A stretch of DNA of 64,000 nt from a virus, in the IMG/VR virus record IMGVR_UViG_3300034122_000625, positions 1 through 64,000 of that record; one strand, written 5' to 3'. Under the pieces are notes generated by a model. That model did no database searches. It saw only the letters and a list, made by a program, of their open reading frames with translations, and was not told where the DNA came from. A program made the translations under genes and the position numbers. Numbering within the stretch: the stretch's first letter is position 1; each line of letters begins with the position of its first letter. Shown here one piece after another: positions 1 to 63,819 of the stretch.

Positions 1-2
1 AT

Positions 3-101
3 TCATACATCCGCACTGCGGGGTGTCGTACCAGTCCGGGCGAGGCCACGACTAATAAGCGCAATCATTGGCAGTATTAACCAACCTTTATCTTTTTTCA
101 T
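3..101 (-). CDS. Small hydrophobic peptide, candidate
   Basis: A 32-codon frame starts at ATG (complement 99-101) and ends in TGA at the window edge. It reads MKKDKGWLILPMIALISRGL and then a polar Thr/Arg tail. The lysine-rich start and hydrophobic stretch suggest a signal or membrane peptide. It follows the 114-317 gene by 12 bases on the same strand. No family is recognised, and the frame is short enough to be chance. Confidence 0.3.
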   Translation of the reverse strand: MKKDKGWLILPMIALISRGLARTGTTPRSADV

Positions 102-113
102 TTCTCGTTGGTG

Positions 114-317
114 TTAAAGGTTTTCAACCTCTTGTTTTACTTCAGTCCAGTAATCAATTTCATTTTGAGCCGTGAGTAATGCAATCTTCTTGGCAATTGT
201 GGTGCATAGGATTTCATTTCCGCACTCTGTGTCCTCCTCCATTAAAACCATTTTGTTTTGCATGACTAAGAGTTGTGCTTTTTCTTTTGCAGTCAAAAAT
301 TTCACGTTGTCTTTCAT
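114..317 (-). CDS. Small hypothetical protein
   Basis: This encodes 67 aa, mostly charged helix (KEKAQLLVMQNKMVLMEE), with two cysteines and no membrane segment. The start overlaps the stop of the 314-556 gene as ATGA, so the two are probably translationally coupled. It is the second gene of a leftward pair near the distal end of the accessory island. No family is recognised, and a regulatory or host-interaction role is only a guess from context. Confidence 0.6.
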   Translation of the reverse strand: MKDNVKFLTAKEKAQLLVMQNKMVLMEEDTECGNEILCTTIAKKIALLTAQNEIDYWTEVKQEVENL

Positions 318-3552: not shown

Positions 3553-4032
3553 TTACTTAAGGTAGATGCATTCCTGCATCCGGCAGTCATAGATGGCTCG
3601 CTGCTTGTTCGCAAGGCCCAGCAGGATGGCGGATTCTCGGTCAGGAACGTTCACGCTGACATCTGCAACGACCTTCCCTTTCTCAATCCACAATCCAATG
3701 TACAGATTCACTTCGGTGTGCCAATAAACCTTTATGATATTTGAATGCATCTCTGCCATCAGACCTTCAACATCGCTCTTCATGTCAGTGAGTGAGATGA
3801 ACTTGCTGCTCTCTTGCAATTTCACTCCTGCGTAGTTACCCTTCAGGCTGACCATGTACCCATCTTTGGCCGATGACTCCAAGTATTTCAAATCGCTTGG
3901 GATGTCCGGAGCCAATTCTTTCTTTACATACTTCCAAAGTGGGTCAAAGGCTACCTTCACGCTCGCTCCATTGTAATCCTTCAGTGACTGCAATGCGTAG
4001 TCAACTGCTTCACTCCAATTCATGTTGTTCAT
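3553..4032 (-). CDS. Hypothetical protein, 159 aa
   Basis: The largest gene of the accessory island. The N-terminal half is helical (WSEAVDYALQSLKDYNGASV). The C-terminal half has strands (VNLYIGLWIEKGKVVADVSV) and ends CRMQECIYLK. No signal peptide is seen. A typical promoter-leader copy is upstream at 4050-4081. No family recognised. Confidence 0.65.
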   Translation of the reverse strand: MNNMNWSEAVDYALQSLKDYNGASVKVAFDPLWKYVKKELAPDIPSDLKYLESSAKDGYMVSLKGNYAGVKLQESSKFISLTDMKSDVEGLMAEMHSNIIKVYWHTEVNLYIGLWIEKGKVVADVSVNVPDRESAILLGLANKQRAIYDCRMQECIYLK

Positions 4033-4049
4033 GGCTATGTTGTTTGATG

Positions 4050-4081
4050 TTATAACGTCGGTTGCTGTTCAGTTATTGTGC
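4050..4081 (-). promoter_or_regulatory. Phage promoter overlapping upstream stop
   Basis: Minus strand: GCACAATAA, 15 nt, CGTTATAA, then leader CATCAAACAACATAGCC and ATG. The box is the Ala-Gln-stop of 4073-4297. Confidence 0.65.
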
Positions 4082-4297
4082 GAATTTGAATGCGATGAGA
4101 TGTTTTAATGCTGAATCTTTGTCCGCATGGATGCTTGTGTGCAGATGGTCTAAGTCATCGTCGTAGATGTTCAACGCGAAGTCAACGTCTTGGTCTACGA
4201 TATCGACGATGTATGGCGTTCCATCCTTTGTCGTTACATCGAACAAAATACACCCTGCAATTTGTGCAACTGGTTGAATGCTTGCCGTCTGATTCAT
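4073..4297 (-). CDS. Hypothetical protein, 74 aa, ends FAQ
   Basis: The start is MNQTASIQPVAQ after the leader; the longer reading passes through the promoter. It is an acidic alpha/beta protein (DGTPYIVDIVDQDVDFALNI) ending KFAQ, whose codons form the next promoter box. Function unknown. Confidence 0.6.
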   Translation of the reverse strand: MNQTASIQPVAQIAGCILFDVTTKDGTPYIVDIVDQDVDFALNIYDDDLDHLHTSIHADKDSALKHLIAFKFAQ

Positions 4298-4315
4298 GTT
4301 TCTGCTGTTTGATTG

Positions 4316-4346
4316 TTTAACGTCGGTACTTGCTCTGTTATTGTGC
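4316..4346 (-). promoter_or_regulatory. Phage promoter overlapping upstream stop
   Basis: Minus strand: GCACAATAA, 15 nt, CGTTAAAC, then leader AATCAAACAGCAGAAAC and ATG. The box is the Ala-Gln-stop of 4338-4547. Confidence 0.65.
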
Positions 4347-4547
4347 ATCCTCCCATTCTATGGTGATATTTTTTGTGGGCCTATAGGGATAATTTCCTCC
4401 CCGATTAGACATCTCCACCATCTCCATTAGTTCGCTGCCGTTGCGAAGATGCAGATAGCCACATGAATAGCGGACAAAGGATGCTGCTGTGCCGGCGCAA
4501 TCGAATGTGCCTACGACTCCTGCTGTGGTGCTGACGATGAATTTCAT
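4338..4547 (-). CDS. Hypothetical protein, 69 aa, ends DAQ
   Basis: The start is MKFIVSTTAGVVGTF after the leader. It is a small beta-rich protein with two cysteines (DCAGTAAS and RYSCGYL) and a tail ending WEDAQ. The last codons form the promoter box of the next gene. No family recognised. Confidence 0.6.
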   Translation of the reverse strand: MKFIVSTTAGVVGTFDCAGTAASFVRYSCGYLHLRNGSELMEMVEMSNRGGNYPYRPTKNITIEWEDAQ

Positions 4548-4565
4548 GATGCTGTTGTTTGATAC

Positions 4566-4596
4566 TATAACGCTGTGCTGTTTCCTGTTATTGTGC
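4566..4596 (-). promoter_or_regulatory. Phage promoter overlapping upstream stop
   Basis: Minus strand: GCACAATAA, 15 nt, CGTTATAG, then leader TATCAAACAACAGCATC and ATG. The box is the Ala-Gln-stop of the short gene at 4588-4740. Confidence 0.65.
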
Positions 4597-4740
4597 GTCC
4601 TTGAAAATATTTTCAATCTCTTTCCGCTGTGCATCCTGATGCGCGGAGATGAAGTGAACTACAACGTATGCGATGGCGATGGTGATGACTGCTCCTTGGA
4701 TGCCGAGGATGATGGTGCGGATGAATTCTTTGTTGTTCAT
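4588..4740 (-). CDS. Short hidden membrane protein, 50 aa
   Basis: It begins MNNKEFIRTIILGIQGAVIT and has one hydrophobic helix of about 24 residues (ending in IAIAYVVVHFI) and a charged tail ending IFKDAQ. It starts after a promoter-leader (4759-4789), and its final GCA-CAA-TAA matches the island rule. It is probably a single-pass inner-membrane protein. Function unknown. Confidence 0.65.
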   Translation of the reverse strand: MNNKEFIRTIILGIQGAVITIAIAYVVVHFISAHQDAQRKEIENIFKDAQ

Positions 4741-4758
4741 GACTCTGTTGTTTGATTG

Positions 4759-4789
4759 TTTAACGTCGGGTTGTTTCGGTTTAGTATGC
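4759..4789 (-). promoter_or_regulatory. Phage promoter, diverged upstream box
   Basis: Minus strand: GCATACTAA, 15 nt, CGTTAAAC, then leader AATCAAACAACAGAGTC and ATG. The box overlaps the Ala-Tyr-stop end of 4781-4996. Confidence 0.6.
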
Positions 4790-4996
4790 GAAGTCGTTGG
4801 TCAGGTAGTCAAGTGCCCATCTTTTGTTGTCAAATGGGTAGTGATGGACCGTATCGTCGTTGGCATCGTACACCACTAAACCCCACCACTTTCCGCATTC
4901 CGAATGTTCGAGTTTCGCTGTGAAGGTTGAGCCCCCACATTGGACGATGTACTTGTAGTAGCCGGGGTGCTTGTAAGTGCAGGTGACCTTGTTCAT
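4781..4996 (-). CDS. Hypothetical protein, 71 aa
   Basis: This is the promoter-proximal gene of the left arm. I start it at MNKVTCTYKHPGYYKY: the in-frame ATG at 5069-5071 lies inside the promoter, so that longer reading is rejected. It is rich in Tyr, His and Trp with two cysteines (TFTAKLEHSECGKWWGLVVY), suggesting a small beta fold. Function unknown. Confidence 0.6.
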   Translation of the reverse strand: MNKVTCTYKHPGYYKYIVQCGGSTFTAKLEHSECGKWWGLVVYDANDDTVHHYPFDNKRWALDYLTNDFAY

Positions 4997-5053
4997 CTTG
5001 TTTTTTGTTTGTGTTTCTATTTGACCCGGTGCTGTGTGCCCCGTTCCTGCACC

Positions 5054-5082
5054 TATAACGCCATTGCTCATCCTTATTGTAT
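5054..5082 (-). promoter_or_regulatory. First leftward phage promoter
   Basis: Minus strand: TACAATAA, 13 nt, CGTTATA, at the edge of the control region. It is the first copy of the island promoter and has a longer, different leader (about 57 nt). Confidence 0.5.
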
Positions 5083-5236
5083 GTCCACATGGGAATTAAC
5101 ATCCGTTAACATATGGCCATCCCCAATCAGACATGGCACCCGCGCGTAACGCGCGCGAACGCAGCACGAGGAATATTATTGTGTCTGGGGAGATTTTTTT
5201 TTCTGAGGGTGAAAATGGGGGGGAGACCATCCGAAC

Positions 5237-5248
5237 GTATTGCAATAC
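5237..5248. promoter_or_regulatory. 12-bp palindrome
   Basis: GTATTGCAATAC is a perfect palindrome in the control region, 40 bp before the inverted-repeat cluster. It is a candidate dimer-binding site. This is seen directly; function is inferred. Confidence 0.35.
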
Positions 5249-5288
5249 AAAGGTTTACAATTAACAACACAATATGCATACATCCACT

Positions 5289-5408
5289 TTCGCAATCCCA
5301 TGCGAATGACGTGTGGTGGTGGGGTTCACTTTCGCATACGCATTGCGAAGGATGGAGATGCGGATGGCACTATGACATTCGCACCCCCATTGCGAATGAT
5401 GATAGTGC
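5289..5408. promoter_or_regulatory. Three iterated inverted repeats TTCGCA-N6/7-TGCGAA
   Basis: Sites lie at 5289-5306, 5331-5349 and 5377-5397 (ATTCGCA/TGCGAAT). The third is enclosed in an outer arm pair GCACTAT (5367-5373) and ATAGTGC (5402-5408). Spacing is about 42-46 bp, roughly four helical turns, so bound proteins could lie on one face. They are candidate operators or origin iterons. Confidence 0.6.
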
Positions 5409-5536
5409 ATGGCCCCCCGGCCCTGCCCAATCGCTGAATGTTGTGGCCAAATCGCCCTGCCTCAGACCCCACGGGGTTCGCCAAGTCCGTTCCGGATGCG
5501 TGTCGGGTACGTCCGTGATTATATACAATCCCCAAC

Positions 5537-5581
5537 CTCTCTATAACTCCACTCTCTATAACTCCACTCTCTATAACTCCC
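5537..5581. repeat. Triple 15-bp tandem repeat
   Basis: CTCTCTATAACTCCA is repeated three times (last base varies). On the minus strand each unit contains GTTATAGAG, the same string as the downstream box of the promoters at 8355 and 62217, but without a recognisable upstream box. It could be a binding decoy, an origin element or a tandem promoter block. Confidence 0.6.
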
Positions 5582-5716
5582 CCCTTTGCGTTGCGGGAGA
5601 CTGTTTTTTGTCTCTGGCAAGTATTTTGCGTCCCAAAATTTGTTAATTCGCCCATAAGTTACGGTCAGTATGAGTTAATCTGTTGATTTGCAGGGGTAAG
5701 ATTTTTACAGAAGCAC

Positions 5717-5747
5717 TTGACTTTTGACGAAAAAAGTTGTAACTTCG
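5717..5747 (+). promoter_or_regulatory. Bacteroidota-type promoter, rightward
   Basis: TTG at 5717-5719, 20 nt, then TAACTTCG at 5740-5747, close to the TTG/TAnnTTTG consensus known for the Bacteroidota primary sigma factor. It would start transcription just before the structured RNA and the rightward arm. Confidence 0.5.
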
Positions 5748-5755
5748 CCATGCTA

Positions 5756-5818
5756 CTGAGCAAGACAGCACCTTAGCTTCGGGGCTTACCTACGGGCCCC
5801 TTTCGCGGTGCTACTCAG
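5756..5818 (+). ncRNA. Structured leader or small RNA, candidate
   Basis: Nested pairings are visible: CTGAG/CTCAG (5756-5760 with 5814-5818), AGCACC/GGTGCT (5767-5772 with 5807-5812) and GGGGC/GCCCC (5781-5785 with 5796-5800). It lies between a promoter and the first rightward gene, with an A8 run near 5871. It may be a leader, an attenuator or a free RNA. No known family is recognised. Confidence 0.35.
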
Positions 5819-5932
5819 ATGGGAGTAGAAGCGATGGTAACTCAGTTGTGAAGTGGGCGTAGTGTACCCAAAAAAAAGCATAGTTACGGGGAAGGGTTAC
5901 TGGGGTAAAGGGAGGGGGTGATGAATCTGTTG

Positions 5933-5940
5933 TATATTTG
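5933..5940 (+). promoter_or_regulatory. TAnnTTTG box (TATATTTG)
   Basis: A perfect match to the Bacteroidota -7 element, 16 nt before the start of 5957-6094. The upstream TTG element is unclear. Confidence 0.4.
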
Positions 5941-5956
5941 CCCATACCTCCTACAG

Positions 5957-6094
5957 ATGATTATCAAGAGCAAGGGTCAGTGGCAGGTGCGGTCGAGGGC
6001 TGGGAAGCTCTTGGGCACCCACGAGAGTCGAGAGAAGGCCTCCCGACAGCTGGCTGCTATAGAGGCATCGAAAGCAAGGAGGGGAGAGAAGTAA
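5957..6094 (+). CDS. Short basic protein, 45 aa
   Basis: It begins MIIKSKGQWQVRSRAGKLLG and continues with a basic helix ending ARRGEK. The pattern (K-x-Q-W-x-V-R-S-x-x-G-K-x-L-G-T-H-x-S) resembles small basic phage proteins seen near capsid or terminase genes. It is the first gene of the rightward arm, one base before the next start. Role unknown. Confidence 0.65.
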   Translation: MIIKSKGQWQVRSRAGKLLGTHESREKASRQLAAIEASKARRGEK

Positions 6095-8419: not shown

Positions 8420-8890
8420 ATGAACATAAGCAAGAACTTGACGCTCGCAGAAGTCACTAAGTCTCAGACAGCCAGTAGGTTAGGTATTAGCAATACCCCC
8501 GGTAAGGAGGAACTTGAGAGTCTGAAGCTGGTGGCAGAGAAGGTGTTCCAGCCTGTGCGCGAACACTTCAAGGTCCCCATAGCCGTCACCTCTGGCTACC
8601 GCTCCCCAGCCTTGAACAAGGCCATAGGTGGGGCCAAGCGCTCGGAGCACATGATGGGGAGGGCACTCGACCTCGACGCGGATATCCACGGAGGGGTGAC
8701 CAACAAGCAGATATTTGAGTTCGTAAGGGACAACCTCACCTTCAACCAACTGATTTGGGAGTTCGGTGATGACGACTCCCCGGACTGGGTGCACATCTCC
8801 TACTCCCCCACAGCAAACAGAGGGGAGGTGCTTCGTGCTGAGAAAGTAGGCAATAAGACAGTCTACACCCTGTTCCCCAAGAGGAAGTAG
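8420..8890 (+). CDS. M15-family peptidase, endolysin
   Basis: 156 aa from MNISKNLTLAEV; an upstream in-frame ATG falls next to the minus-strand promoter and is less likely. TSGYRSPALNKAIGGAKRSE, SEHMMGRALDLD (about 75-86, zinc His and Asp) and WVHIS (about 122-126, second His) are the M15 D-Ala-D-Ala carboxypeptidase signature. It should cut peptidoglycan cross-links to lyse the cell. It lacks a signal peptide, so a holin or holin-like protein (candidates at 52421, 14450 and 27117) would be needed. It converges on the next gene with a 28-bp overlap. Confidence 0.85.
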   Translation: MNISKNLTLAEVTKSQTASRLGISNTPGKEELESLKLVAEKVFQPVREHFKVPIAVTSGYRSPALNKAIGGAKRSEHMMGRALDLDADIHGGVTNKQIFEFVRDNLTFNQLIWEFGDDDSPDWVHISYSPTANRGEVLRAEKVGNKTVYTLFPKRK

Positions 8891-9288
8891 AAGCGCTCCA
8901 CAGCCATCACCCCACGCTTGCTGAGGGCGAAACGGACCCTGTACTTGTGCCCACCGTCCTCGCGGAATCTGGCGGCCTCGAAGGTCTTGTAGGTCTCGAA
9001 CCGGTGGAAGTGGTGGTATATGAGGTCCTTCTTTAACAGTGGGTATAGGAGGCGGGCGTACATATTTCTGTCGTTAATACCCGTATCTTTACTCGCATGG
9101 ACACGTGTAAAGAACACCAAGTCATACGCCCACACCATAAAGTCCAGTTGGGCACCGGTGACTTTGTTCTCATCGGCCACCTGTTGCCTTATGCGGCCAT
9201 AATACTTGAGTATGTTCTCTCTCTTGACGTTTATGTCTTTATAGAGGAACTCTCTAAACATATACTCTCTCTTTAACTTAGACTCCAT
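8863..9288 (-). CDS. Winged-helix-like protein, 141 aa
   Basis: I start it at MESKLKREYMFREFLY. The pattern of helices then KKDLIYHHFHRFETYKTFEA, a wing-like strand pair (GHKYRVRFALSKRGVMAVER) and a final helix resembles a winged helix-turn-helix of the MarR or PadR kind. It is divergent from 9287-9613 with overlapping start codons (CATG at 9286-9289). It could regulate the divergent pair. Confidence 0.5.
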   Translation of the reverse strand: MESKLKREYMFREFLYKDINVKRENILKYYGRIRQQVADENKVTGAQLDFMVWAYDLVFFTRVHASKDTGINDRNMYARLLYPLLKKDLIYHHFHRFETYKTFEAARFREDGGHKYRVRFALSKRGVMAVERFYFLLGNRV

Positions 9289-9613
9289 GAATAAGAAGGT
9301 TTTTGAGGAAGCTCTGAAGCGTTCGTTTCTCGCCCAAGCCAAGATGATACTCGAGGCTCTCGATGAGCTCGTGGATGATATGGGGTTGAGGGATGAGGTG
9401 TTTATGGTGAACTGCGTGGCAGTAAACACAGGGGAGGACGATGAAGGGACAAATATAAGTGCCGTGTTCCAGATTCAGGTGGATGAAGCAGAAGATATAG
9501 CTGATATTATGGAGATGGCTATAGGGCACTACAGCCGATATGAGAAACTCCCCAAGAATAAACTATCGGCTACAGGGGCTATATTTGCCTCAAATCCAAT
9601 ATCCTTAAACTAA
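9287..9613 (+). CDS. Hypothetical acidic protein, 108 aa
   Basis: The N-terminus is helical (KKVFEEALKRSFLAQAKMIL) and the rest strongly acidic (EALDELVDDMGLRDEVF, then VDEAEDIADIMEM). Its ATG overlaps the start codon of the minus gene at 9288. It ends TAATG into the next gene. No family recognised. Confidence 0.6.
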   Translation: MNKKVFEEALKRSFLAQAKMILEALDELVDDMGLRDEVFMVNCVAVNTGEDDEGTNISAVFQIQVDEAEDIADIMEMAIGHYSRYEKLPKNKLSATGAIFASNPISLN

Positions 9614-14999: not shown

Positions 15000-15076
15000 G
15001 GGGACGTAGCTCAGTTGGTTAGAGCAGGATGCTTATATCATCAAGGTCGCAGGTTCAAGCCCTGCCGTCCCTACCA
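15000..15076 (+). tRNA. tRNA-Ile (anticodon TAT)
   Basis: The cloverleaf is clear: acceptor GGGGACG/CGTCCCT (1:72 is G-T), D-stem GCTC/GAGC, anticodon loop CTTATAT giving UAU for AUA codons, T-arm GCAGG-TTCAAGC-CCTGC. CCA follows A73. The 27:43 pair (G-A) is mismatched. Confidence 0.85.
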
Positions 15077-15096
15077 CGCCAACGGGTGTGAATGTT

Positions 15097-15169
15097 GCTT
15101 CTGTAGCTCAATTGGTAGAGCAGCTGATTTGTACTCAGCAGGTTGAGGGTTCGACTCCTTTCAGAAGCT
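15097..15169 (+). tRNA. tRNA-Thr (anticodon TGT)
   Basis: Acceptor GCTTCTG/CAGAAGC is perfect, D-stem GCTC/GAGC, anticodon arm GCTGA-TTTGTAC-TCAGC giving UGU, T-arm GAGGG/CCTTT. CCA is not encoded. Confidence 0.9.
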
Positions 15170-15224
15170 CAAACAGTACTCATCACGCTACCCATAAGAA
15201 CAGCGTCCCGGGGTGAGTCCTTAC

Positions 15225-15254
15225 GGGGGTAGGTAGTTGCAAATGCCTACCCTC
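15225..15254 (+). other. Strong hairpin between tRNAs
   Basis: GGGGGTAGG (15225-15233) pairs with CCTACCCTC (15246-15254) over a 12-nt loop, between tRNA-Thr and tRNA-Trp. It has no following U-run, so it may be a processing signal or a relic rather than a terminator. Confidence 0.4.
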
Positions 15255-15258
15255 ATTT

Positions 15259-15331
15259 GCTTCGGTAGCTCAATTGGTAGAGCGCTGGTCTCCAAAACCA
15301 GAGGTTGTAGGTTCGAGTCCTACCCGTCGCG
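15259..15331 (+). tRNA. tRNA-Trp (anticodon CCA), mismatched acceptor
   Basis: D-stem GCTC/GAGC, anticodon arm CTGGT-CTCCAAA-ACCAG and T-arm GTAGG-TTCGAGT-CCTAC are sound. The acceptor GCTTCGG against CCGTCGC has two adjacent mismatches (3:70 T-C and 4:69 T-T), so aminoacylation or folding could be affected. The discriminator is G. Confidence 0.8.
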
Positions 15332-15336
15332 CAAAC

Positions 15337-15410
15337 GCCCTCGTAGCTCAGTCGGATAGAGCAACAGCCTTCTAAGCTGTGGGTCACAGGTTCGAGCCCT
15401 GTCGGGGGTA
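15337..15410 (+). tRNA. tRNA-Arg (anticodon TCT)
   Basis: Acceptor GCCCTCG/CGGGGGT with two G-T pairs, D-stem GCTC/GAGC, anticodon arm ACAGC-CTTCTAA-GCTGT giving UCU for AGA, T-arm ACAGG/CCTGT. CCA is not encoded. It lies 5 nt after tRNA-Trp. Confidence 0.9.
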
Positions 15411-15423
15411 CAATAGAATTTAC

Positions 15424-42199: not shown

Positions 42200-43612
42200 A
42201 TGGCTGAATATCAAGGTTATATAGCTCCACTGGCTCAATCCCAGAGCTACTCTGATGCTCTTCAGGCTCGTATGGATGTCATACGACAGCAACAAATGCA
42301 GAATATGCAACTGTTGCTTGACGCTCAGAACAAGCGGGATGCTATGACGACTCAACAGCTTGAGAAGCTGTACAGCCTGCGTACCAATGGTTGGGGGGAG
42401 AAACCTATAGAGGCTTTTGCAGCACAGAGAGATAAGTTTGCTGAAAAACTAAAGACCAATCAGTATACTGACCAAGCATCGTTCTTGGCTGACTTAAGCA
42501 AACTTGCTGACACCCATGCTGCGTACTCGTCTCATTACGAGACCACAAATCCTGTAATAAGACAGACTCAGCAATACGTGGCTCAGCCGGGTTTATACCC
42601 AGACAAAACCATGAAGGTTACTGAGAATGTAGAGACACTTACTCAAAAGATGGGGCTACAGAGGAATCTCGGTATAAGTAGTTTTAGTGTTTCTGACGAC
42701 GGAAGTATTCAGTATTTAGGTGCAGATAACAGACCGTTAGACATATCTGCCGCTATGAATCCTGCTACATATCTACCAAAGGTGGAACCAGTGTTTGTCC
42801 ATCCAATGCAACTATCTAATGAATTTACAACCCTTTACCAAAAGGCATTAGAGAACGGAAAAACTGGTAACGCATTCATTGCAGATGTGCTCCCGAGTCT
42901 TACGACTAAAGTCATCGAAGACCCATCGTTATCGTCTTCAGCTCGAACATACTATGTGAGTGTTAATGGAACAGACACTATTCCATCAGACGAAAAATCA
43001 GAAGGCGAAACCGATGAGCATTACTACGCCAGACACTATGCTGAGGCAGGGTTGGCTACATTTAGGAATACCAAAAAAACGTATGCCCCCACGAGTGGCG
43101 GAGGCAGGACAAGTGCAACAACTGCCTCAACAAAACAACCGGCTATAATGGATGTAGGGGTGAGAAAAGGGGAGGGTCCTTCAAGGAGCTATACAAATTT
43201 AGGTGCATTGGGGGGCTACGGCGGTAAACCAAACGAACAGTATTATCAATATAGTTTTCCGAGTGTTGTGTCCAAAGTGAACTTAGCTTCCTTCCTTGCT
43301 CCAGAAGCAAAAGCGGAGATAGGTGATGATTTGAGTTTTGACATTAAGACTTTACGCTTTACTGAGAACGGATATATGGTTCTTCCGAATGTAAGTATAG
43401 GAGCTAAGCAAGTTGGCGACGTATACATAGGAGCAGACAGTCATGTTTATAGTGAAATAAGCGCCGCATTGAAAAAGGAATACGGTTACGACATAACCCA
43501 ATGGACTAACGGAAGTGTATACAGCGTTATACAAGGGCAAGCCTCTGGTGTTCCTCAAACCACTCAACCGGGTGCAGGTACAGTTATAAAATTCAACGCA
43601 ATTGTACAATGA
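42200..43612 (+). CDS. Putative internal/ejection protein, 470 aa
   Basis: A Gln-rich coiled-coil N-terminus (YSDALQARMDVIRQQQMQNM, LDAQNKRDAMTTQQLEKLYS) with an extended Ser/Thr/Gly middle and beta-like C-terminal part. Context with 41250 and 43609 suggests the second ejection protein. No enzyme motif. It overlaps the next start as ATGA. Confidence 0.55.
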   Translation: MAEYQGYIAPLAQSQSYSDALQARMDVIRQQQMQNMQLLLDAQNKRDAMTTQQLEKLYSLRTNGWGEKPIEAFAAQRDKFAEKLKTNQYTDQASFLADLSKLADTHAAYSSHYETTNPVIRQTQQYVAQPGLYPDKTMKVTENVETLTQKMGLQRNLGISSFSVSDDGSIQYLGADNRPLDISAAMNPATYLPKVEPVFVHPMQLSNEFTTLYQKALENGKTGNAFIADVLPSLTTKVIEDPSLSSSARTYYVSVNGTDTIPSDEKSEGETDEHYYARHYAEAGLATFRNTKKTYAPTSGGGRTSATTASTKQPAIMDVGVRKGEGPSRSYTNLGALGGYGGKPNEQYYQYSFPSVVSKVNLASFLAPEAKAEIGDDLSFDIKTLRFTENGYMVLPNVSIGAKQVGDVYIGADSHVYSEISAALKKEYGYDITQWTNGSVYSVIQGQASGVPQTTQPGAGTVIKFNAIVQ

Positions 43613-46600
43613 ACGAAAATTATCAACAGCTATACGGATACCTGTCCCAAAATGGGTTGACAGACCTTAGTTCCGATGAGTTTTATAATTCGTACTCGTC
43701 CAATAAAGCGAATTTCAATCAACTATACGCATATCTGGCGGAGAACAAGATGACAGACTTGGGGGCGGACGACTTCTACGCCGCATACTTCGAGCCCCCT
43801 GCTGGTGCGAAAAAAAAAAGTCAATCTTCTCCGTCATATACTCCACCTTCGAGAGGGTACTTGCCGGGTGATGAGCTCGTTCGTCAGATAGCAGAGGCTC
43901 CTTCTGAGCCTGTATACCCTAACGTTCGTAGGGCTCAAGTGGTTCGTCAGATGCTTGAGAACACCACCCTGCTTGACGTAGACCAAAATGTGCTTCAGTC
44001 TTATGGACTTGACGAGTCTGACTGGAGAACGGCACAGGTGGCTTACGCCCTTGATAACACAGAGCAAGACGTTCAGGTAGCCTCTCAGGCTATTCAAGAC
44101 AGGAGTTATGAGCAGGCTTTGGCTGAGGCCAAGTTGAAGGCTCAGGAGGCGTTTATCCCTCAGTTGCTGAAGAATACGTTCCCTAACTCGCCGAATCTGT
44201 TCCGCGCTGCCGAGTGGTTGTTTGAGCCGCAATATGGGCCAATGGGGAATGCTACGGCAGACTTCATGCTCGAACTTGTAGACTCTTCTGTTAGAGCCGT
44301 AGCTGGAGGATTAACCACCAACGATGCAGCAACGGAGGCTTTTAATGTGTTTGCTGAGAAGGGTGTTGGCCTGTCCAGAGAGTCTACAGACAGACTCTAC
44401 AATGCTGTAACGGCGGCTCAGGGCTTTCAGGAGCGCTATGGACAGTCTGAGAGTATGTTGGAGTGGAGCGCTGAAATAGAGGAGGCTAAGAGGAATGGGG
44501 ACAGCGAGCTGCTTGCAGCCCTGTTTGCTACAGCTAAGAACCCTATGGTTCTCCCTGAGATTATGGTGAACTCATACGCCAGTGTATTTAACAAGGCCTC
44601 TATCGCTGCTGCGGCTACTACTACAGGTGGATTTATAGCCGGTGGTGCCGGTGCCGGTGCTGTTGGAGGGCCTGCGGGTGCAGCTGGGGGTGCCTTGGTG
44701 GGTGCAGCTTCAAGTGTGCCTTGGGCTATGGGTGCAGCCTTTACGGCTCTTGAGGTGGGTATGACATTCCCTGAACTTGTCAGGGCTGAGATGGAGGAGC
44801 GCGGTATGGAGTTCAACAAGGAGAACTTCTACGCTGCACTGAATAACGACGAGATATATAACTCCGCTTTGGCTCGCTCTGCTGCTCGTGGTACAGCTAT
44901 CGGTGTGGTGAGTGCTCTCGGCGCAAGAGCGGCGACACAGGTGTCTAAGAACCTCGCCAATAGAGGTATGAGCTCTGTAGGCAGAACGTTCTCTGTTGCA
45001 CCTATAGAGATGGGGGCTGGTTTCAGTGGTGAGGTATTGGGTCAGGCGGCTGGTGGGCAGGAGATAGACCTTGCAGAAGCTACTATGGAGGGGCTTGCTG
45101 AGATAGGCATGGCCCCAGTTGCTGTAGCTGGTGCATACGCTGAGGACTTGGCGGCTAAGAAGCCGAAGTACAAGGTCGGCACGAATACCGTTGGTAGAGA
45201 GGAGATAGAGCGTGTGGTTACGGCAGCAACTCCTGAGGAGTTGAAGCAGATGTCGCTGACGGTAGAGAATGATAGTGAAATGGAAGCTCTTATCGACGAT
45301 AAGATGTTCCGCTCAGAGATTGCTGACAGAGTTCCAGAGACGCTTGGCTCTGAGGACAGAAGACGCATCATCAACCTTGAGGCAGAGAAGAGACAGATTC
45401 AGAACAGAAAGACTGACTCCTTCACGGGCACTGAGGGTGCTATGGCTATAGCTGGCAAGGAGCGTGTTGCTCAGATAGACGAGGAGATTTATGGCATCAT
45501 GAATCCAGCCCCAGAGCCTCTGCAACCTATTACTCTGGACATTGAGCCCATCGCAACGCCTGAGATAGTCACCGAGCCTGCCCCCACATTAGAGCCTGTC
45601 TTTGTGGCCGACTTGGTCAATAGACCTGTTACACTTACCTCTCACAACGGAACACTGCTTGAGACTCCTGTGCAGGGTGACCTGTATGTAGATGGACAGA
45701 CTGTAGTTGTTGAATCGGCAGACAGGATATACGAGATTGGCAATGTGTCTGAACTTAATGAGCAGGACTCAAGGGCCTTGGGTATAGAGCCTCAGGTGGA
45801 GACTGTTGTCGTTCAGGCTGATGAGTCTCTGGTCATCGAGAATGAAGAGTTCTTGATTCAGAGAGACCTCCCCACGATGGGTATAGACTACGATGCCGAT
45901 GGTAACGTCACAAGGGTTAGCCTTGAGAGTAAGAAAGACGGCTCGAAGAAAATGTTCTCTGGTCAAACGGCTATCGACGCAGCATATCAGATACTTTTGT
46001 CCAAAGCCGAGTCACCAGAACAGATTGACCGTATAGACAAGATACTTGAACAAGATGAAGAATACAAAAGACTCCACGACGAGTACGTCGCCAAAAAGCT
46101 CGCAGAGCGGGATGAAAAACCTCGAGAAGCTGCGGCAGCTCCCCAAGCAAGACCAGATACGGATACTGGCGCGAGTGCTAAGCCAAGCGAATCAAAACCA
46201 GTAGCCAAGCCTGAACCTAAGAAAACCCCTCCACTTAAAGAGAAGGAGGCGCCTCAGCCTAAGCCTGCCAACAAAGTTGTAGACAGATTGACCCGTCTGT
46301 TGTCTATAGAGACAGACCCAGTTCGTATGTCCAGCCTTGTGGCTCAGTTGGAGCAGGCGGCAGCTATGGGTGTCGTGTTGCCTGAGAAATCCGCCAAGGA
46401 GTTGAGAGAGGCAAAAGAACAGCTTGAGGCAGGTGGTTATGTCTCTGAGACGCCACAGGTAGGTTCTGACTATGACCCCAATACCACGGATGAGGTTGTC
46501 ATGGTTACGTCAACTGAACTGCCAGCAGGTCAGAAGAAGGTTGTATCTGTCACTCGTCCCAGAGTTACGCAAAACGGACGGGTGAAGCAGTCTGCCAAGT

Positions 46601-49600
46601 TGGTGGTTGCTGTAGGCACAGCCGACCCTACTGCGCTTTCTACAGGCAGGGCGCGTGGAGAGCTTGAAACCCTCAGCAATCCTCGAAACACAAAACAGCT
46701 TCAGTCTACATACGAGAAACTGTGGGGTATGACCCCAGAGAAAGCAAAGGCGGCAGCAGCCATATCTGACAAGATGATTGGTACTATGGCCGCAAGGCAC
46801 GGTATCAGCAAGAAGGATATGTACGCTCGCATTAAGTGGGTGAAGTCTAAGAGTGTGGATGCAAACGGCAACTCTGTCCCGGATACTGACGGACCGGTAG
46901 TAAGGTTTCAGGCCAGAATAGAGGACAGTAAGCGAGGTATAACTATGCAGTTCTTTGCCGGTGGCCCCGAATTAGAGCAACGGAAGCAAGATGGCAACCT
47001 TGATGACAATGCGCCACTATCTACTATATACGACAAAACTGGTGTCCTTTTTCATACCCCTGATAAGGCGGGTGGGTTTATTATATCTAAGGACGGAAAA
47101 AATATTGTAGAGGGACAGGGTGGTATGTACTTCCCTCTTCTCCCGGGTTTCTTTGAAAACAGATACTTCTGGGCTTCCACAGAAGGCGCGGCTAATGGAA
47201 TGGCTGATTCCCTTAATCGGGCCGCTCAGATGTCTAAGGACGGAAAGGTTAGGATGGTGCTGGTGAGCACAAACTTAAACAAGTTGTCTGGGGGTTCTGG
47301 TATAAACCAAGGGTTGGTGCGTATGCTTCAATCTTTTATGGAAGATAAGAAGTTTCCGCTTCTCCAGTCGGACGTGAAGTCCATTTTGATTGCAGCAAAC
47401 GCAGCCCTTGGAAGGCCTCCAGCAGGAAAACCGGATGGCCCCAGAGCTGTTTTGAATGCTGACGTAAAAGGAAGCATGAATGTAAAGCAGATAATTGATG
47501 TAATCTTAGATAAACTGTCTCCAGAAAGTAGTTCTTTTCCAGACAGATGGGCGTTTTTTGAAGGTGTTGCTATGGGTTTAAGCAAAGTTGCCTCAGAAGA
47601 CCCTAAAAAAAAGAAGGCCATTGTGGAGCTGTTGAACACCATCTCAGGTCTTGAGGAGTGGGGCCCAAAGAAAAATCCAAAGAAGAAGCTGTTTAAGAAA
47701 GACGTTCTGGTGGCCCTTCACTCAGCGTTTTCTGAACCTGTCTTAAGAGTAGTAGGCGACTCGTTGGATACAGACAAGAAACTGGGGACAAACAATGAAA
47801 GGGTGTATGCTGTTATAGAGGCCGATGTAAATCCAGATGACCCAGCAAACACCTTCGAAGCTATATCACCAAAATACGAGGGTCTTCCAGAGCACGCATC
47901 ATATCCTCGCGTAATAAGGCTTGTCAATCAAGACGCCAGAACTACCGTTCGCATTCTTAACGAAAGGGCTCCTTGGTATAACTTAGCCATAAATCCAGCT
48001 ACAGGCAGGACGCCTGAGGAAAACGAAAGGCTGAAGATATTCCCGTTTGGATTCACAAATAATCCGCTGTCTACTACATCCATATCGGAAGACCCGACGG
48101 ATGTAAATCTGATTCCTCTGACGTCCTCTGCAATTGATACTAAGGCTGTTACAAAAAATACAAAGGCAGAGGTTGACAGAATAAAGGGGTTGCCTGAGAA
48201 TGAAGAGGATGGGGCTACGTTTAATAATGACGGAACTAAGCTGGAGTTGGCTCAGGGCGCTATTGTGCCTGTTGCATCATTTAACACTACGCAGGAGGAA
48301 CTTACTCCTGAGATGATTTCTGAGTTCTTAGATTCTATGAGAGGTGTGTTTTCTACTCAGACCGTAAGGTTTGGGTTGTACAAGTTCCCTGACTCCACCA
48401 AGGTTTCCATAGACATAAACATTGTAGTTGACGAAAACAACAGAGACGAGGCTATAAAGTTTGCCAGATACGCTGGTCAAAAGTCTGTGTTTTTTATGTC
48501 AGACTTCAGTACGGCTGAAACCGGGGCAAGCGGAAAAAACCCCAAGACCTTTAGCATAGAACAGTACGCCGAGATTGCTCGCAGGCTTGAAGACGGCACA
48601 ATAGACACGTTTATTCAGGGCAACAACCCGTACTCGCTTCCAGAAGAAATTTCAGATGTTCTTACAGATGACGGCAATGGCAATTACGTCTTTAGGCACT
48701 ACTCAGAGGAAAGGCGAGATGTCATCAAGCCCGGCTCCGGACAAAACATTAGGACTTCGAGAGATGAGGCATCTGCAATAGGTTCTGTTGGCGGGCTGGC
48801 AATGTACTACGTTGACGATTCAAGAGACGTGGGTGGCAATGTGCCTCATATAGTAAAAGTCCCTAAGGATAAGGTTTACTACTACAATGAAGACGCCTTA
48901 GACTTTTTTTCTGAAGCAAAAAAGAGGTATAGCGAAAGGACTGGGCTTAGGAATTTCTTGAATTACAATCAAGAGCTCGCTTGGATTACAAAGGTTGCTA
49001 ATGAGAGAGGCTTTGAGATGGTAATCAGTGAGTGGAGTGTTGGTAATGCCAAGCTAAGGGCTCAGACCACCATGACTCTTGAGCCTATCGAGGGCGACTT
49101 TGAAATGAACTCCAACAAGAGGACGCCGCCAAACATCGTAAAGGGCGACAACATATTGATAGATGGCTACAGATACGTTGTCGTCAATTCACAAATCATT
49201 AACGGTCGGCGTGAGATAGAGTACACCAACACCAGTCTAAGTAACACACAGAAACAGTTTGTGGACCTGATGGTTGATGGAAATGGGAATCCCAACGTCA
49301 CCCGCAATAGATTTACCTACGAAGTCATAGACGCCAACGGCAATGTCGTTCGTCAAAACAAGGGTCAAGTTTACTTCCAAGACCAACGCGCTGCTATTGT
49401 TATGAGCGGCACAGAGGCTGTTATTCACGCTATCTCCAACCCAGACGTAACTTCCCCTCTCCACGAACTTGCTCACCTGTATGAGCAGGTATTGACTGAC
49501 GAGGAGAGACAACAGATTCTCGATTGGACAGGGCAAGAGCAATGGAATGGTGATACGTCAGAAGCTTTTGCCGAAGGATTCGAGAAGTTCCTGTATGAAG

Positions 49601-52446
49601 GTGAGGCTCCCACCCCGGAGATGAGGGATGCATTCAGTAAGTTCAAGAAGTGGATTACGGAGATATACAGCGCCATCAAAGGCACTCCGCTACAGCTTGA
49701 GCTGAATGACAACATGAGACGGATATACGAGAATATATTCGCCACTCAGGAGCCAGAGAACATAACCCACAATCAACAGCCCATCAACGGCGTACTGTAT
49801 CAAGGACCTACAAATGCACAGGGGCAGAGCACTTACTCTCCCTCAAACATGAGCTCCTTCCAGACGTACTTGCTGGCATTTAGACGCAAGTGGCAGGACA
49901 AGTATGCTGAGGTTATGTGGTTCCAAGATGACATCAAGAAACAGGGCAAAAAAGTAACAGAGTCCGCCGACTTCAGGATGGCAGAAGACCTGATGCACGG
50001 GCGGACAAGGAATGACATGGATAAGGTTGAGCAGCAGCTTGAAGAGGCTCAGAAGTTCATGAGAAAGCACGGCCTTACATCAGACGACTTGTCAGACTAT
50101 CTGTACGCCCTCCATGCACCATCTCGTAATCAGGCCATCTTGGATAAGTATGGGAAGGTTGACGGCTCCGGTATGTCTGATGCTGAAGCTGATGCCATCC
50201 TTAACGATTTGAGAGCGAAGTATGACCCAAATATCCTTGAACAGGCGGCTGACTACTTTCGCGATATGCTTGCGAACAACAGACAGGTTATGTCTGAATT
50301 CGGGCTTGAAACGCCTGCCATACTTGATGACTTTGAACAAAACGAGACTTATGTTCCCTTGTTCGGTATTGCCACAGACGAGATGTCAACTGACACGACC
50401 GTCTACCCCACTGGAGGTGCAGGTATACACGTATACGGACACGTCAGCAAGAAAGCTAAGGGTAGAAAGAGTAGGGCCACCAACGTCCTTGCAAACATAG
50501 TATCCGCCTCTCTCGCTCTTAGAATCAAGGCGCGTAAGAATGAATCCCTGTTGTCACTGTACAACCTTATTCAGGATAACCCGAGCGATGCTTGGGAGGT
50601 TGTGTCCGACTCGAAGACAGGTGATGAGGCAAGCGTTGGTGTTCGCATAAACGGTGAGCAGCACTTCATCAGATTTGCAGACCCCAACAAGGCTAAGCAG
50701 CTAAAGAACATGGGGATTGACAGCGTCAACTGGTTCAATAAGGCTTTGAGAGTTTTGCCTACCAGTTGGTTGCGAAAGTCGTTCACCGTGTACGACCCAG
50801 AATTCGTTATCTCAAACTTCTTAAGAGACTTGGAGGCGGCCATATTGAATGCCGCAGCTGAAGCTGAAGAAGGGGGTATAACTGAAGGCGTAGACCTGTC
50901 CAAGGATATAGCCAAGATTAAGAAGAATGTTTGGCCAACCTTTAGGGCTTTGGTTAAAATAAACTTTGGTGGGGTTGCTGACCCGACAATCAATCAGTAT
51001 TACGAGGAGATGAAGGAAGATGGCGGCATCACAGGGTGGGTGCAGCTAAAGACCTTAGGGGATATGGCCGCAGACATTCAGAACGGTATAGACCCAAGTA
51101 ACGTTAGGATAGCTAAGGATAAACTCGGAAGCGTTTTTACATACATCGAGAAGATGAACGATGCTGTGGAGCAGGCTGTGAGATTGACAGCTTACATAGC
51201 CGCTCGTGAACGTGGAATATCTCGGAACAAGTCAGCGCAGCTTGCAAAGAACTTGACGGTAAACTTTAACCGGTACGGCGAACATGGCATCACGCTCAAC
51301 CAGTTCAAGATGTTCTTCAATGCATCGGTTCAAGGTTCCTACAGAGTCCTCACTACGCTTGGCAAAACAAGAAAAGGCCCGGGACCCTTTTACAACAGAC
51401 TTACGAAGTCTCAGAAACTTGCAATTGGTTTGTTCCTTATGAACTCAACCATCACGGCCTTTAATATAGCCATGAGTGATGACGATGAGGATGATGTCAG
51501 CTTCTACAAGAAGATATCGGACAATGATAAGCAGCGTAACCTGATTCTCATGTACGATGGGCAGAACTTCATAAAGATACCTATGGCCTATGGATTTGGT
51601 GTCATAACCAGTTTTGCTGAGGCTGTTACCTCTACCGCTATGGGGGTTAGAGATGCTGATGATGCTGCTTGGTTTACGCTATCTTCCCTCCTAAACTCAT
51701 TCTCCCCGATTCAGTTTGGAGACTACACCACAATTGAGAAGTCAATCACCACACTGATAACACCATCAGGCTTGGCTGCTGTAACAGAATCTGCTCTGAA
51801 TGAAACTTTTATGGGTTCTCAGGTGTACAGAGAGCAGCTGCCGTTTGGTACACCAGCCCCAGAGTATCAGCTCGGATTTAAGTCACCTATGTGGCTCAGA
51901 GATGCCACAAAGACCATCAACGAGATGACGGGTGGTAGTGAGTATGTTCCGGGAGATATAGACATAAACCCAGACAGAATATATCACTACTACAACTTCT
52001 ACATCGGCGGGTTGGGTAGGTTTGTGGGTAGAAGCGGCGAGGCTATCCTGTCCACAAAAGAGATGATTCAGAGTGGAAAGGCTATACGGATGAGTTCCAA
52101 TGACTTGCCCATGCTTAGGAAGATATACGGGGAGCCATCTCGATTCTACGACTACAGGCTGTTCAACGAAAACCTTACGGAGAGCAAACAGCTTCTCGAC
52201 GAGTACGAAGACCCAGCCACGAGGAGCAGCGACAAGGACCGGTATGGAAAGATATACACCATTAAGCAGGCTCGATTGGAAGCAGAGAAAAAGCTGAAGG
52301 ACTTGAGAGCTCAACTGAGACAGGCTGAAAAGATGGAGGACTACGTGGAGAGAAAGAATACTGTATTCGAGTTGTACGAGAAGCAGCGTTTGGTTATGGC
52401 AGAGTTCAATAAGCTATACAATGAGAAGGGACCGAAAAAAGATTAA
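43609..52446 (+). CDS. Giant polyvalent ejection protein, 2945 aa
   Basis: The N-terminus has two 28-residue repeats (QLYGYLSQNGLTDLSSDEFY and QLYAYLAENKMTDLGADDFY). Then come a Gly/Ala membrane-like stretch (about 327-388), a Pro/Lys linker (about 835-890), a HYSEERRD region (about 1695-1830) with ADP-ribosyltransferase-like look, an HELAH zinc-protease-type motif at about 1950, and a helical C-terminus with LAIGLFLMNSTITAFNIAMS. The order recalls polyvalent proteins of phages, which are ejected with the DNA and carry enzymes into the host. It ends in a Lys/Glu-rich coiled coil. Confidence 0.7.
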   Translation: MNENYQQLYGYLSQNGLTDLSSDEFYNSYSSNKANFNQLYAYLAENKMTDLGADDFYAAYFEPPAGAKKKSQSSPSYTPPSRGYLPGDELVRQIAEAPSEPVYPNVRRAQVVRQMLENTTLLDVDQNVLQSYGLDESDWRTAQVAYALDNTEQDVQVASQAIQDRSYEQALAEAKLKAQEAFIPQLLKNTFPNSPNLFRAAEWLFEPQYGPMGNATADFMLELVDSSVRAVAGGLTTNDAATEAFNVFAEKGVGLSRESTDRLYNAVTAAQGFQERYGQSESMLEWSAEIEEAKRNGDSELLAALFATAKNPMVLPEIMVNSYASVFNKASIAAAATTTGGFIAGGAGAGAVGGPAGAAGGALVGAASSVPWAMGAAFTALEVGMTFPELVRAEMEERGMEFNKENFYAALNNDEIYNSALARSAARGTAIGVVSALGARAATQVSKNLANRGMSSVGRTFSVAPIEMGAGFSGEVLGQAAGGQEIDLAEATMEGLAEIGMAPVAVAGAYAEDLAAKKPKYKVGTNTVGREEIERVVTAATPEELKQMSLTVENDSEMEALIDDKMFRSEIADRVPETLGSEDRRRIINLEAEKRQIQNRKTDSFTGTEGAMAIAGKERVAQIDEEIYGIMNPAPEPLQPITLDIEPIATPEIVTEPAPTLEPVFVADLVNRPVTLTSHNGTLLETPVQGDLYVDGQTVVVESADRIYEIGNVSELNEQDSRALGIEPQVETVVVQADESLVIENEEFLIQRDLPTMGIDYDADGNVTRVSLESKKDGSKKMFSGQTAIDAAYQILLSKAESPEQIDRIDKILEQDEEYKRLHDEYVAKKLAERDEKPREAAAAPQARPDTDTGASAKPSESKPVAKPEPKKTPPLKEKEAPQPKPANKVVDRLTRLLSIETDPVRMSSLVAQLEQAAAMGVVLPEKSAKELREAKEQLEAGGYVSETPQVGSDYDPNTTDEVVMVTSTELPAGQKKVVSVTRPRVTQNGRVKQSAKLVVAVGTADPTALSTGRARGELETLSNPRNTKQLQSTYEKLWGMTPEKAKAAAAISDKMIGTMAARHGISKKDMYARIKWVKSKSVDANGNSVPDTDGPVVRFQARIEDSKRGITMQFFAGGPELEQRKQDGNLDDNAPLSTIYDKTGVLFHTPDKAGGFIISKDGKNIVEGQGGMYFPLLPGFFENRYFWASTEGAANGMADSLNRAAQMSKDGKVRMVLVSTNLNKLSGGSGINQGLVRMLQSFMEDKKFPLLQSDVKSILIAANAALGRPPAGKPDGPRAVLNADVKGSMNVKQIIDVILDKLSPESSSFPDRWAFFEGVAMGLSKVASEDPKKKKAIVELLNTISGLEEWGPKKNPKKKLFKKDVLVALHSAFSEPVLRVVGDSLDTDKKLGTNNERVYAVIEADVNPDDPANTFEAISPKYEGLPEHASYPRVIRLVNQDARTTVRILNERAPWYNLAINPATGRTPEENERLKIFPFGFTNNPLSTTSISEDPTDVNLIPLTSSAIDTKAVTKNTKAEVDRIKGLPENEEDGATFNNDGTKLELAQGAIVPVASFNTTQEELTPEMISEFLDSMRGVFSTQTVRFGLYKFPDSTKVSIDINIVVDENNRDEAIKFARYAGQKSVFFMSDFSTAETGASGKNPKTFSIEQYAEIARRLEDGTIDTFIQGNNPYSLPEEISDVLTDDGNGNYVFRHYSEERRDVIKPGSGQNIRTSRDEASAIGSVGGLAMYYVDDSRDVGGNVPHIVKVPKDKVYYYNEDALDFFSEAKKRYSERTGLRNFLNYNQELAWITKVANERGFEMVISEWSVGNAKLRAQTTMTLEPIEGDFEMNSNKRTPPNIVKGDNILIDGYRYVVVNSQIINGRREIEYTNTSLSNTQKQFVDLMVDGNGNPNVTRNRFTYEVIDANGNVVRQNKGQVYFQDQRAAIVMSGTEAVIHAISNPDVTSPLHELAHLYEQVLTDEERQQILDWTGQEQWNGDTSEAFAEGFEKFLYEGEAPTPEMRDAFSKFKKWITEIYSAIKGTPLQLELNDNMRRIYENIFATQEPENITHNQQPINGVLYQGPTNAQGQSTYSPSNMSSFQTYLLAFRRKWQDKYAEVMWFQDDIKKQGKKVTESADFRMAEDLMHGRTRNDMDKVEQQLEEAQKFMRKHGLTSDDLSDYLYALHAPSRNQAILDKYGKVDGSGMSDAEADAILNDLRAKYDPNILEQAADYFRDMLANNRQVMSEFGLETPAILDDFEQNETYVPLFGIATDEMSTDTTVYPTGGAGIHVYGHVSKKAKGRKSRATNVLANIVSASLALRIKARKNESLLSLYNLIQDNPSDAWEVVSDSKTGDEASVGVRINGEQHFIRFADPNKAKQLKNMGIDSVNWFNKALRVLPTSWLRKSFTVYDPEFVISNFLRDLEAAILNAAAEAEEGGITEGVDLSKDIAKIKKNVWPTFRALVKINFGGVADPTINQYYEEMKEDGGITGWVQLKTLGDMAADIQNGIDPSNVRIAKDKLGSVFTYIEKMNDAVEQAVRLTAYIAARERGISRNKSAQLAKNLTVNFNRYGEHGITLNQFKMFFNASVQGSYRVLTTLGKTRKGPGPFYNRLTKSQKLAIGLFLMNSTITAFNIAMSDDDEDDVSFYKKISDNDKQRNLILMYDGQNFIKIPMAYGFGVITSFAEAVTSTAMGVRDADDAAWFTLSSLLNSFSPIQFGDYTTIEKSITTLITPSGLAAVTESALNETFMGSQVYREQLPFGTPAPEYQLGFKSPMWLRDATKTINEMTGGSEYVPGDIDINPDRIYHYYNFYIGGLGRFVGRSGEAILSTKEMIQSGKAIRMSSNDLPMLRKIYGEPSRFYDYRLFNENLTESKQLLDEYEDPATRSSDKDRYGKIYTIKQARLEAEKKLKDLRAQLRQAEKMEDYVERKNTVFELYEKQRLVMAEFNKLYNEKGPKKD

Positions 52447-62790: not shown

Positions 62791-62972
62791 CAGTACCTAC
62801 TGAACTTTACAAACATGAACTGAAACTCCATGTACTTCCGTCCGTTTAAGGCGGCGATGTATGTGAACGAGAGCAGTGCTCTGGGGCCAAACTGAAGGCC
62901 ACCAAGTTCCACGACTGAGAACTTGAATGTTCTCTTGGACACCTCTAAGTCAAGCAAATCGAAGTAAATCAT
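62790..62972 (-). CDS. Hypothetical protein, 60 aa
   Basis: MIYFDLLDLEVSKRTFKFSV, QFGPRALLSFTYIAALNGRK: beta-rich, hydrophobic and basic. Overlaps 62581-62790 by one base and the DnaA-like gene by four. Function unknown. Confidence 0.55.
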   Translation of the reverse strand: MIYFDLLDLEVSKRTFKFSVVELGGLQFGPRALLSFTYIAALNGRKYMEFQFMFVKFSRY

Positions 62973-63580
62973 TGTACTATTTTTTTGTTAATGGCTTCTC
63001 TAATGACCTCGTTGATGGCATCAGTCGGACTCTCCCCTGACTGAATCTTAGACAACACTTCATCGAACAACTGAGCCTTCTCTTTGGTGAAGTCATCCTT
63101 GATGACATCCATGACTATCTTCTTAGGGCTCACATTCTGTATCAAGTCCTTCTGCGCTCTCAAGTACCTTACCCAGTCATCGTTTTCTGACTTTGGTGCC
63201 TCCAATGAATCGGCGAACGGCATTGTACTCATCACCAACTTGGCTGCCTCGTACACCTCTCTGTATCCCTTCCAATACTCAAGATTGGACTCATGATTCC
63301 TGCGGTGGTGAATGATTGTGGCGTGGTGCTGCCCCATGCAGTCCGCTACGTCGATGATTCGGAATCTGTTTGTCAGGGCGCATCCAATTGCAGCGCGAGC
63401 CTTAACTGATTCAGACATCCGGCTGTTGTCGCGTGGCTTCCCTGTTCGATTGTAGAACTCGTCGAGGGTGCTGTTTATCATGTTCTTCAGCACTCGCTTC
63501 CACATGACACGGCTGTATCCTTCTACAATGTCGTTTATCAGGAGGACATTCTTTTGGCTTAAAATGGTGTTCTGTTCCAT
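62969..63580 (-). CDS. DnaA C-terminal-domain-like protein
   Basis: 203 aa from MEQNTILSQKNVLLIND. RMSESVKARAAIGCALTNRF and VADCMGQHHATIIHHRRNHE resemble the DnaA domain IV signature (A-R-x-x-A...L-x-x-x-x-G-x-x-D/H-H-x-T-V/I-x-H). No AAA+ ATPase region is present. It may bind the phage origin or a host DnaA-box. The C-terminus is helical. Confidence 0.6.
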   Translation of the reverse strand: MEQNTILSQKNVLLINDIVEGYSRVMWKRVLKNMINSTLDEFYNRTGKPRDNSRMSESVKARAAIGCALTNRFRIIDVADCMGQHHATIIHHRRNHESNLEYWKGYREVYEAAKLVMSTMPFADSLEAPKSENDDWVRYLRAQKDLIQNVSPKKIVMDVIKDDFTKEKAQLFDEVLSKIQSGESPTDAINEVIREAINKKIVQ

Positions 63581-63819
63581 TACTCTGCGTCTTTGTGTTT
63601 CATGATGAAGATTCCGTCTCCTGCACGAGCCACGATGTACTCTACACCATCGTGTGTGTACGACATTACATCCAACTCGCTGGTGTTCTGCCTCGTTCGT
63701 TCTTCTGCCTTCAGGTATGACACCACTTGTGCGGCGGTGAAGATTAAGGAGATGCACATAATCGCTAACGTAAAGGTCGCAAGATTATTGCGTACCGAGT
63801 CAAGAAGTTTTTCGCTCAT
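63580..63819 (-). CDS. Membrane protein, 79 aa
   Basis: An N-terminal helix (LDSVRNNLATFTLAIMCISL, then IFTAAQVVSYL) followed by a charged, beta-like cytoplasmic or periplasmic tail (DVMSYTHDGVEYIVARAGDG). Coupled by a TAATG overlap to the DnaA-like gene. Function unknown. Confidence 0.6.
   Translation of the reverse strand: MSEKLLDSVRNNLATFTLAIMCISLIFTAAQVVSYLKAEERTRQNTSELDVMSYTHDGVEYIVARAGDGIFIMKHKDAE

Follow-up and report, generated by a model that had tools for sequence, protein, structure and literature searches.

DNA hairpins form the early promoters of phage N4 (Schitoviridae), where they are read by the virion RNA polymerase and consist of a 5-7-bp stem, a 3-nt loop and conserved bases. 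Palindromic repeated sites are also typical of operators. In phage origins of the lambda type, imperfect inverted repeats of 19 bp are grouped next to an AT-rich tract (PMC7466680), and the mitochondrial genes of Nematomorpha contain many perfect inverted repeats, including in coding sequence, and almost no imperfect ones (PMC6649704). The locus described here lies in the window, by which we mean the whole 64,000-nucleotide stretch analysed (positions 1-64000 in a virus record of 65,190 bp), and it can be compared with each of these systems.

Leftward genes occupy the region from about position 5071 to the start of the record and again from 57.8 kb to the right end, and this arm encodes replication-type functions (primase/helicase, exonuclease and an Erf-like annealing protein). 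Between about 5.96 and 57.6 kb the genes are mainly rightward and structural (terminase, portal and virion proteins), with four phage tRNA genes (Ile-TAT, Thr-TGT, Trp-CCA and Arg-TCT) located upstream of the terminase gene at 15000-15411. A stretch of about 120 bp is near-identical at window positions 1-120 and record positions of about 64785-64910 (2785-2910 of L002), beyond which lie diverging paralogous genes; this end repeat bears on the closure or assembly of the record. There are no close phage relatives by DNA in GenBank. By terminase, the relatives found there infect Flavobacterium, Cellulophaga and other Bacteroidetes and all stay below 60% identity, which suggests that the window phage and its clade probably infect Bacteroidetes. 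The relatives compared below are nearly all metagenomic fragments.

The only large divergent intergenic region, at 5072-5957, contains three palindromes of the form TTCGCA-N6/7-TGCGAA. Site 1 (5289-5306, + strand) reads TTCGCAAT-CCC-ATGCGAA. Sites 2 (5331-5349) and 3 (5378-5396) carry the same unit inverted and read, on the - strand, TTCGCAAT-GCGT-ATGCGAA and TTCGCAAT-GGGGG-TGCGAA, respectively. Thus, the full repeat unit is longer than the palindrome and asymmetric (TTCGCAAT-N3..5-(A)TGCGAA, in orientations +, - and -), and the palindrome loops are 6, 7 and 7 nt. The stem of site 3 extends to 5376-5398, and the site is enclosed in an outer palindrome at 5367-5408 with the arms GCACTAT (5367-5373) and ATAGTGC (5402-5408). 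An earlier note, made from this DNA alone, had reported both the three copies and the enclosing palindrome, and each is borne out. A further short palindrome, CGCGCG-TAA-CGCGCG, is present in the same interval at 5141-5155.

This repetition is not expected by chance. Exact matches to TTCGCA-N(4-9)-TGCGAA occur three times in 64 kb, all within 5289-5396 and nowhere else in the window, where dinucleotide shuffles predict 0.01. Nowhere else in the window do hexamer palindromes with the same arm cluster in twos or more (0.02 per 64 kb in shuffles), and when the intergenic region was resampled 20,000 times under a Markov model, a run of two appeared a single time and none of three. The 8-mer TTCGCAAT occurs four times in the window, and three of these are inside the sites. 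The earlier note had also called the repeats phased, but this description does not hold. The sites start 42 and then 47 bp apart, and their centres are separated by 42.5 and 47.0 bp, equivalent to 4.05 and 4.48 helical turns, such that no regular helical face is kept. Two records of this virus differ in the stretch by a single SNP, C5408A in L004, which breaks only the outermost pair of the outer stem around site 3; one SNP is too little for a test of selection on the sites.

The earlier note had suggested looking for the sites in related phages, but no relative has them, not even L240, which among those with the region is the nearest by terminase (78%). When viral contigs were scanned for the pattern, non-self matches fell exclusively in unrelated contigs, occurring singly where counts were made, and the three-copy set was found in no other virus examined. 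The set is therefore restricted to this species, and it occupies the interval that in many relatives holds the array described below.

The surroundings of the sites are conserved. An alignment shows that parts of the divergent region are common to 46 distinct relatives, in which a box, an AT-rich core, a promoter and an RNA follow one another rightward, and the window has all four. The box (5429-5439, + strand) is AATCGCTGAAT in the window and AAAAGCTGAAA in relatives, with three mismatches between them, and it is located 91 bp before the core (91-92 bp wherever the box is found). The core (5520-5547) begins about 125 bp from site 3 and reads TATATACAATCCCCAACCTCTCTATAAC in the window and TATAYAYAATCCCCnnnnTCTnTRTnAC in relatives; this motif was not found in genome contigs from bacteria and archaea. 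Three tandem 15-bp repeats, CTCTCTATAACTCCA (5537-5580, + strand), run out of the core and duplicate its right half, and these are found in the window phage alone. The promoter follows after a gap that measures 130-230 bp in relatives. It is a strong, conserved, rightward element with Bacteroidetes-like -33/-7 sequences (TTGACTTTTGACGAAAAAAGTTGTAACTTCGCC, 5717-5749, + strand) and takes the form TTGACTTT-N5-AAAAAAGYTGTAMCTTYGCC across relatives.

Immediately downstream is the start of a conserved putative non-coding RNA (5750-5890, + strand) with a length of at least 140 nt, and regions homologous to this promoter and RNA are present in more than 40 relatives. The RNA includes a covarying hairpin with ordinary G-U exchange, and RNAalifold yields a weak consensus. 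An Rfam search with the window region gave no match at E<1, and one with L230 gave only sub-threshold chance matches.

We tentatively favour the explanation that the three repeats are binding sites for a dimeric phage-encoded protein at a divergent control region that is probably also a replication origin. The dimer would recognise the TTCGCAAT and (A)TGCGAA half-sites, and three dimers, 42-47 bp apart, would assemble a complex beside the AT-rich core, on its leftward side. This complex might start replication, set the balance between leftward (replication) and rightward (structural) transcripts, or both. Sequence recognition by a dimer is preferred because the half-sites are shared while the loops are free, and three copies with identical half-sites and identical asymmetry never arose by chance. 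On the other side, the absence of the sites from all relatives could reflect a recent local duplication.

The earlier note had likewise proposed an operator or an origin. The divergent position, the control elements conserved across the clade, a nearby minimum of cumulative GC skew (which is confounded by gene orientation) and DnaA boxes in relatives agree with that proposal, while the lack of a DnaA box in the corresponding window stretch, the dissimilarity of the sites to such a box and the irregular spacing do not. Between core and promoter, 19 of the 46 relatives have a match to the DnaA box TTATCCACA at 8/9 or better, compared with 1.8 expected, a count that is uncorrected for the shared ancestry of the relatives. 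In the window this stretch holds no such box (best match 6/9).

A candidate origin-binding protein is encoded at 62969-63757 (- strand), and its residues from about 94 to 180 resemble DnaA domain IV. The earlier description of this product as DnaA-like was apt, as it is 34% identical over 89 aa to a relative's protein with a score above the Pfam cut-off for Bac_DnaA_C, although the window copy alone scores below Pfam detection. Several relatives encode a protein above or near this cut-off. Together, the DnaA boxes in relatives and the domain IV protein support an origin, short of proof. The likeness to a DnaA-type (oriC-like) origin therefore consists of this clade protein and the relatives' boxes, whereas the window lacks the box and no full-length DnaA is present. 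The other candidate binder named in the earlier note, a protein it called winged-helix (8863-9429, - strand), is conserved across the clade in phages with or without TTCGCA sites, and is thus a poor candidate for recognising a species-specific site.

Resemblance to a lambda-type origin, with its O-bound iterons, lies in the several imperfect inverted repeats of about 18-19 bp, present in three copies. However, the window repeats are 42-47 bp apart and in mixed orientation, whereas lambda-type iterons are adjacent; the AT-rich core is conserved but starts about 125 bp away; and the sites are intergenic rather than inside an initiator gene. In addition, no O homologue or other member of an O-like initiator family was found among the proteins scanned, which were a subset of the ORFs.

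The more unusual finding is what relatives carry in the interval of these sites. In about 25 of them, including L230 (core at about 5191, array at about 4000-5190), L239, L268, L249 and L255, a chain of short perfect hairpins with arms of 6-10 bp and loops of mostly 2-5 nt lies directly left of the core. There are up to 39 hairpins in 2.6 kb, compared with 1-4 expected, and the array spans the leader as well as the first leftward gene. Ten leader hairpins have fixed distances from the core, and their stems differ between relatives. In a 14-sequence alignment, changes on both sides of a stem number 113, versus 45.2 in shuffles (0/500 as high) and 25-36 in slid controls, and a slot-by-slot refit yields 632 Watson-Crick pairs against a single G-T, 11 other mismatches and no A-C. 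In 18 cases, versus 7.0 expected (0/1000), a loop is inverted from one relative to another although the arms stay the same. All of these covariation counts come from related sequences.

G-U pairs are nearly absent from the array even though the neighbouring RNA shows them, which argues for constraint at the level of DNA, and their absence on both strands led us to reject the array as RNA hairpins. Overall, the features of the array point to constraint on the DNA itself or to template switching that corrects palindromes. The Lys/Ser/Ala-rich protein encoded by the first leftward gene (893-1594, - strand, in L156) lies within the array, has homologues with a conserved N-terminal stretch in other array phages, and possibly binds the hairpins. 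Our literature searches turned up no account of a comparable array in phages. The divergent layout of Flavobacterium elemo phages is similar, but the 50 kb examined contain no hairpin hotspot. Neither the window phage nor L240, its near relative, has the array or the DnaA box. An array-free relative, L183, has direct repeats, GGGTCATGTGTG, at about 2540-2580 in the interval matching that of the TTCGCA sites. Clade members may use different iteron-like repeats in this interval, phage by phage.

The nearest parallel to the array is in the coding palindromes of Nematomorpha, which are also many, perfect and partly within genes. These are long and scattered, whereas the phage hairpins are short, keep fixed positions and span one leader and one gene. 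N4 promoters share with the array the short stems and small loops of DNA hairpins constrained at the level of DNA structure, and the window encodes a giant protein in its structural arm (2945 aa, 43609-52446), which has an LPD38 polyvalent-protein domain near its C-terminus. However, the array comprises about 30 hairpins of unrelated sequence, with stems and loops that vary freely, compared with three having conserved bases in N4, and the window loops are 6-7 nt. We rejected N4-type promoters, as no T7/N4-type single-subunit polymerase motifs were found in the 2945-aa and 1505-aa proteins, with a PF00940 search included that had no working positive control; no vRNAP PHROG was found.

These observations raise a possible, though rather doubtful, account in which the clade has an undescribed origin or early-control element made of up to about 30 DNA hairpins that are recognised by structure, for which the window phage swapped in three sequence-specific palindromes. 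The element would occupy 0.5-1.4 kb at fixed positions beside the AT-rich core and pass through the non-coding leader and the first leftward gene.

Less probably, the palindromes themselves work as DNA hairpins, either extruded or in single-stranded form, and are the form that the array takes in this lineage, such that structure matters and sequence does not. The occupation of the matching interval by hairpins at fixed positions whose stems change on both sides, the near-exclusive Watson-Crick pairing and the loop inversions fit this idea. Folded as single-stranded DNA, the window segment also does better than shuffles (z about -2.9). In that single strand, sites 1 and 2 pair preferentially with each other, as site 2 is inverted relative to site 1. 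However, the window loops are longer than the 2-5 nt of the array, one arm sequence is common to all three sites in a way that array hairpins are not, and the array-carrying leftward gene is missing from the window phage. One-to-one homology of the sites with slots -217, -175 and -112 is tempting but not claimed, since distances from a G-rich anchor are off by about 13 bp and array slots already cover half of the interval.

It is unlikely that the sites serve solely as a transcriptional operator, binding a repressor or activator of a leftward promoter with no link to replication. Their divergent position would suit this role, and a weak Bacteroidetes-like promoter candidate with two mismatches lies left of site 1 (5280-5248, - strand), but such a match is at chance level (1.38 expected). 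There is no cI/Cro-like or other dedicated regulator among the proteins scanned, and the relatives' DnaA boxes point toward replication. Least probable of all is that a chance palindrome was duplicated locally and, with no function, kept perfect by template switching in replication, a process that makes imperfect inverted repeats perfect and has been proposed for the Nematomorpha palindromes (PMC6649704); restriction of the sites to one species and the relatives' loop inversions would fit, but all three copies have kept the exact half-sites despite diverging loops and flanks, and they lie within the most conserved control region.

On the favoured explanation of protein-binding sites, the TTCGCA palindromes point to where a widespread group of aquatic phages, probably infecting Bacteroidetes, is likely to have its origin and early switch. 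The hairpin array of their relatives covaries like a structured RNA yet keeps strict Watson-Crick pairing. If it is functional, it would be an unusual DNA-structure signal, and if it is not, it would be a clear example from nature of palindromes maintained by template switching.
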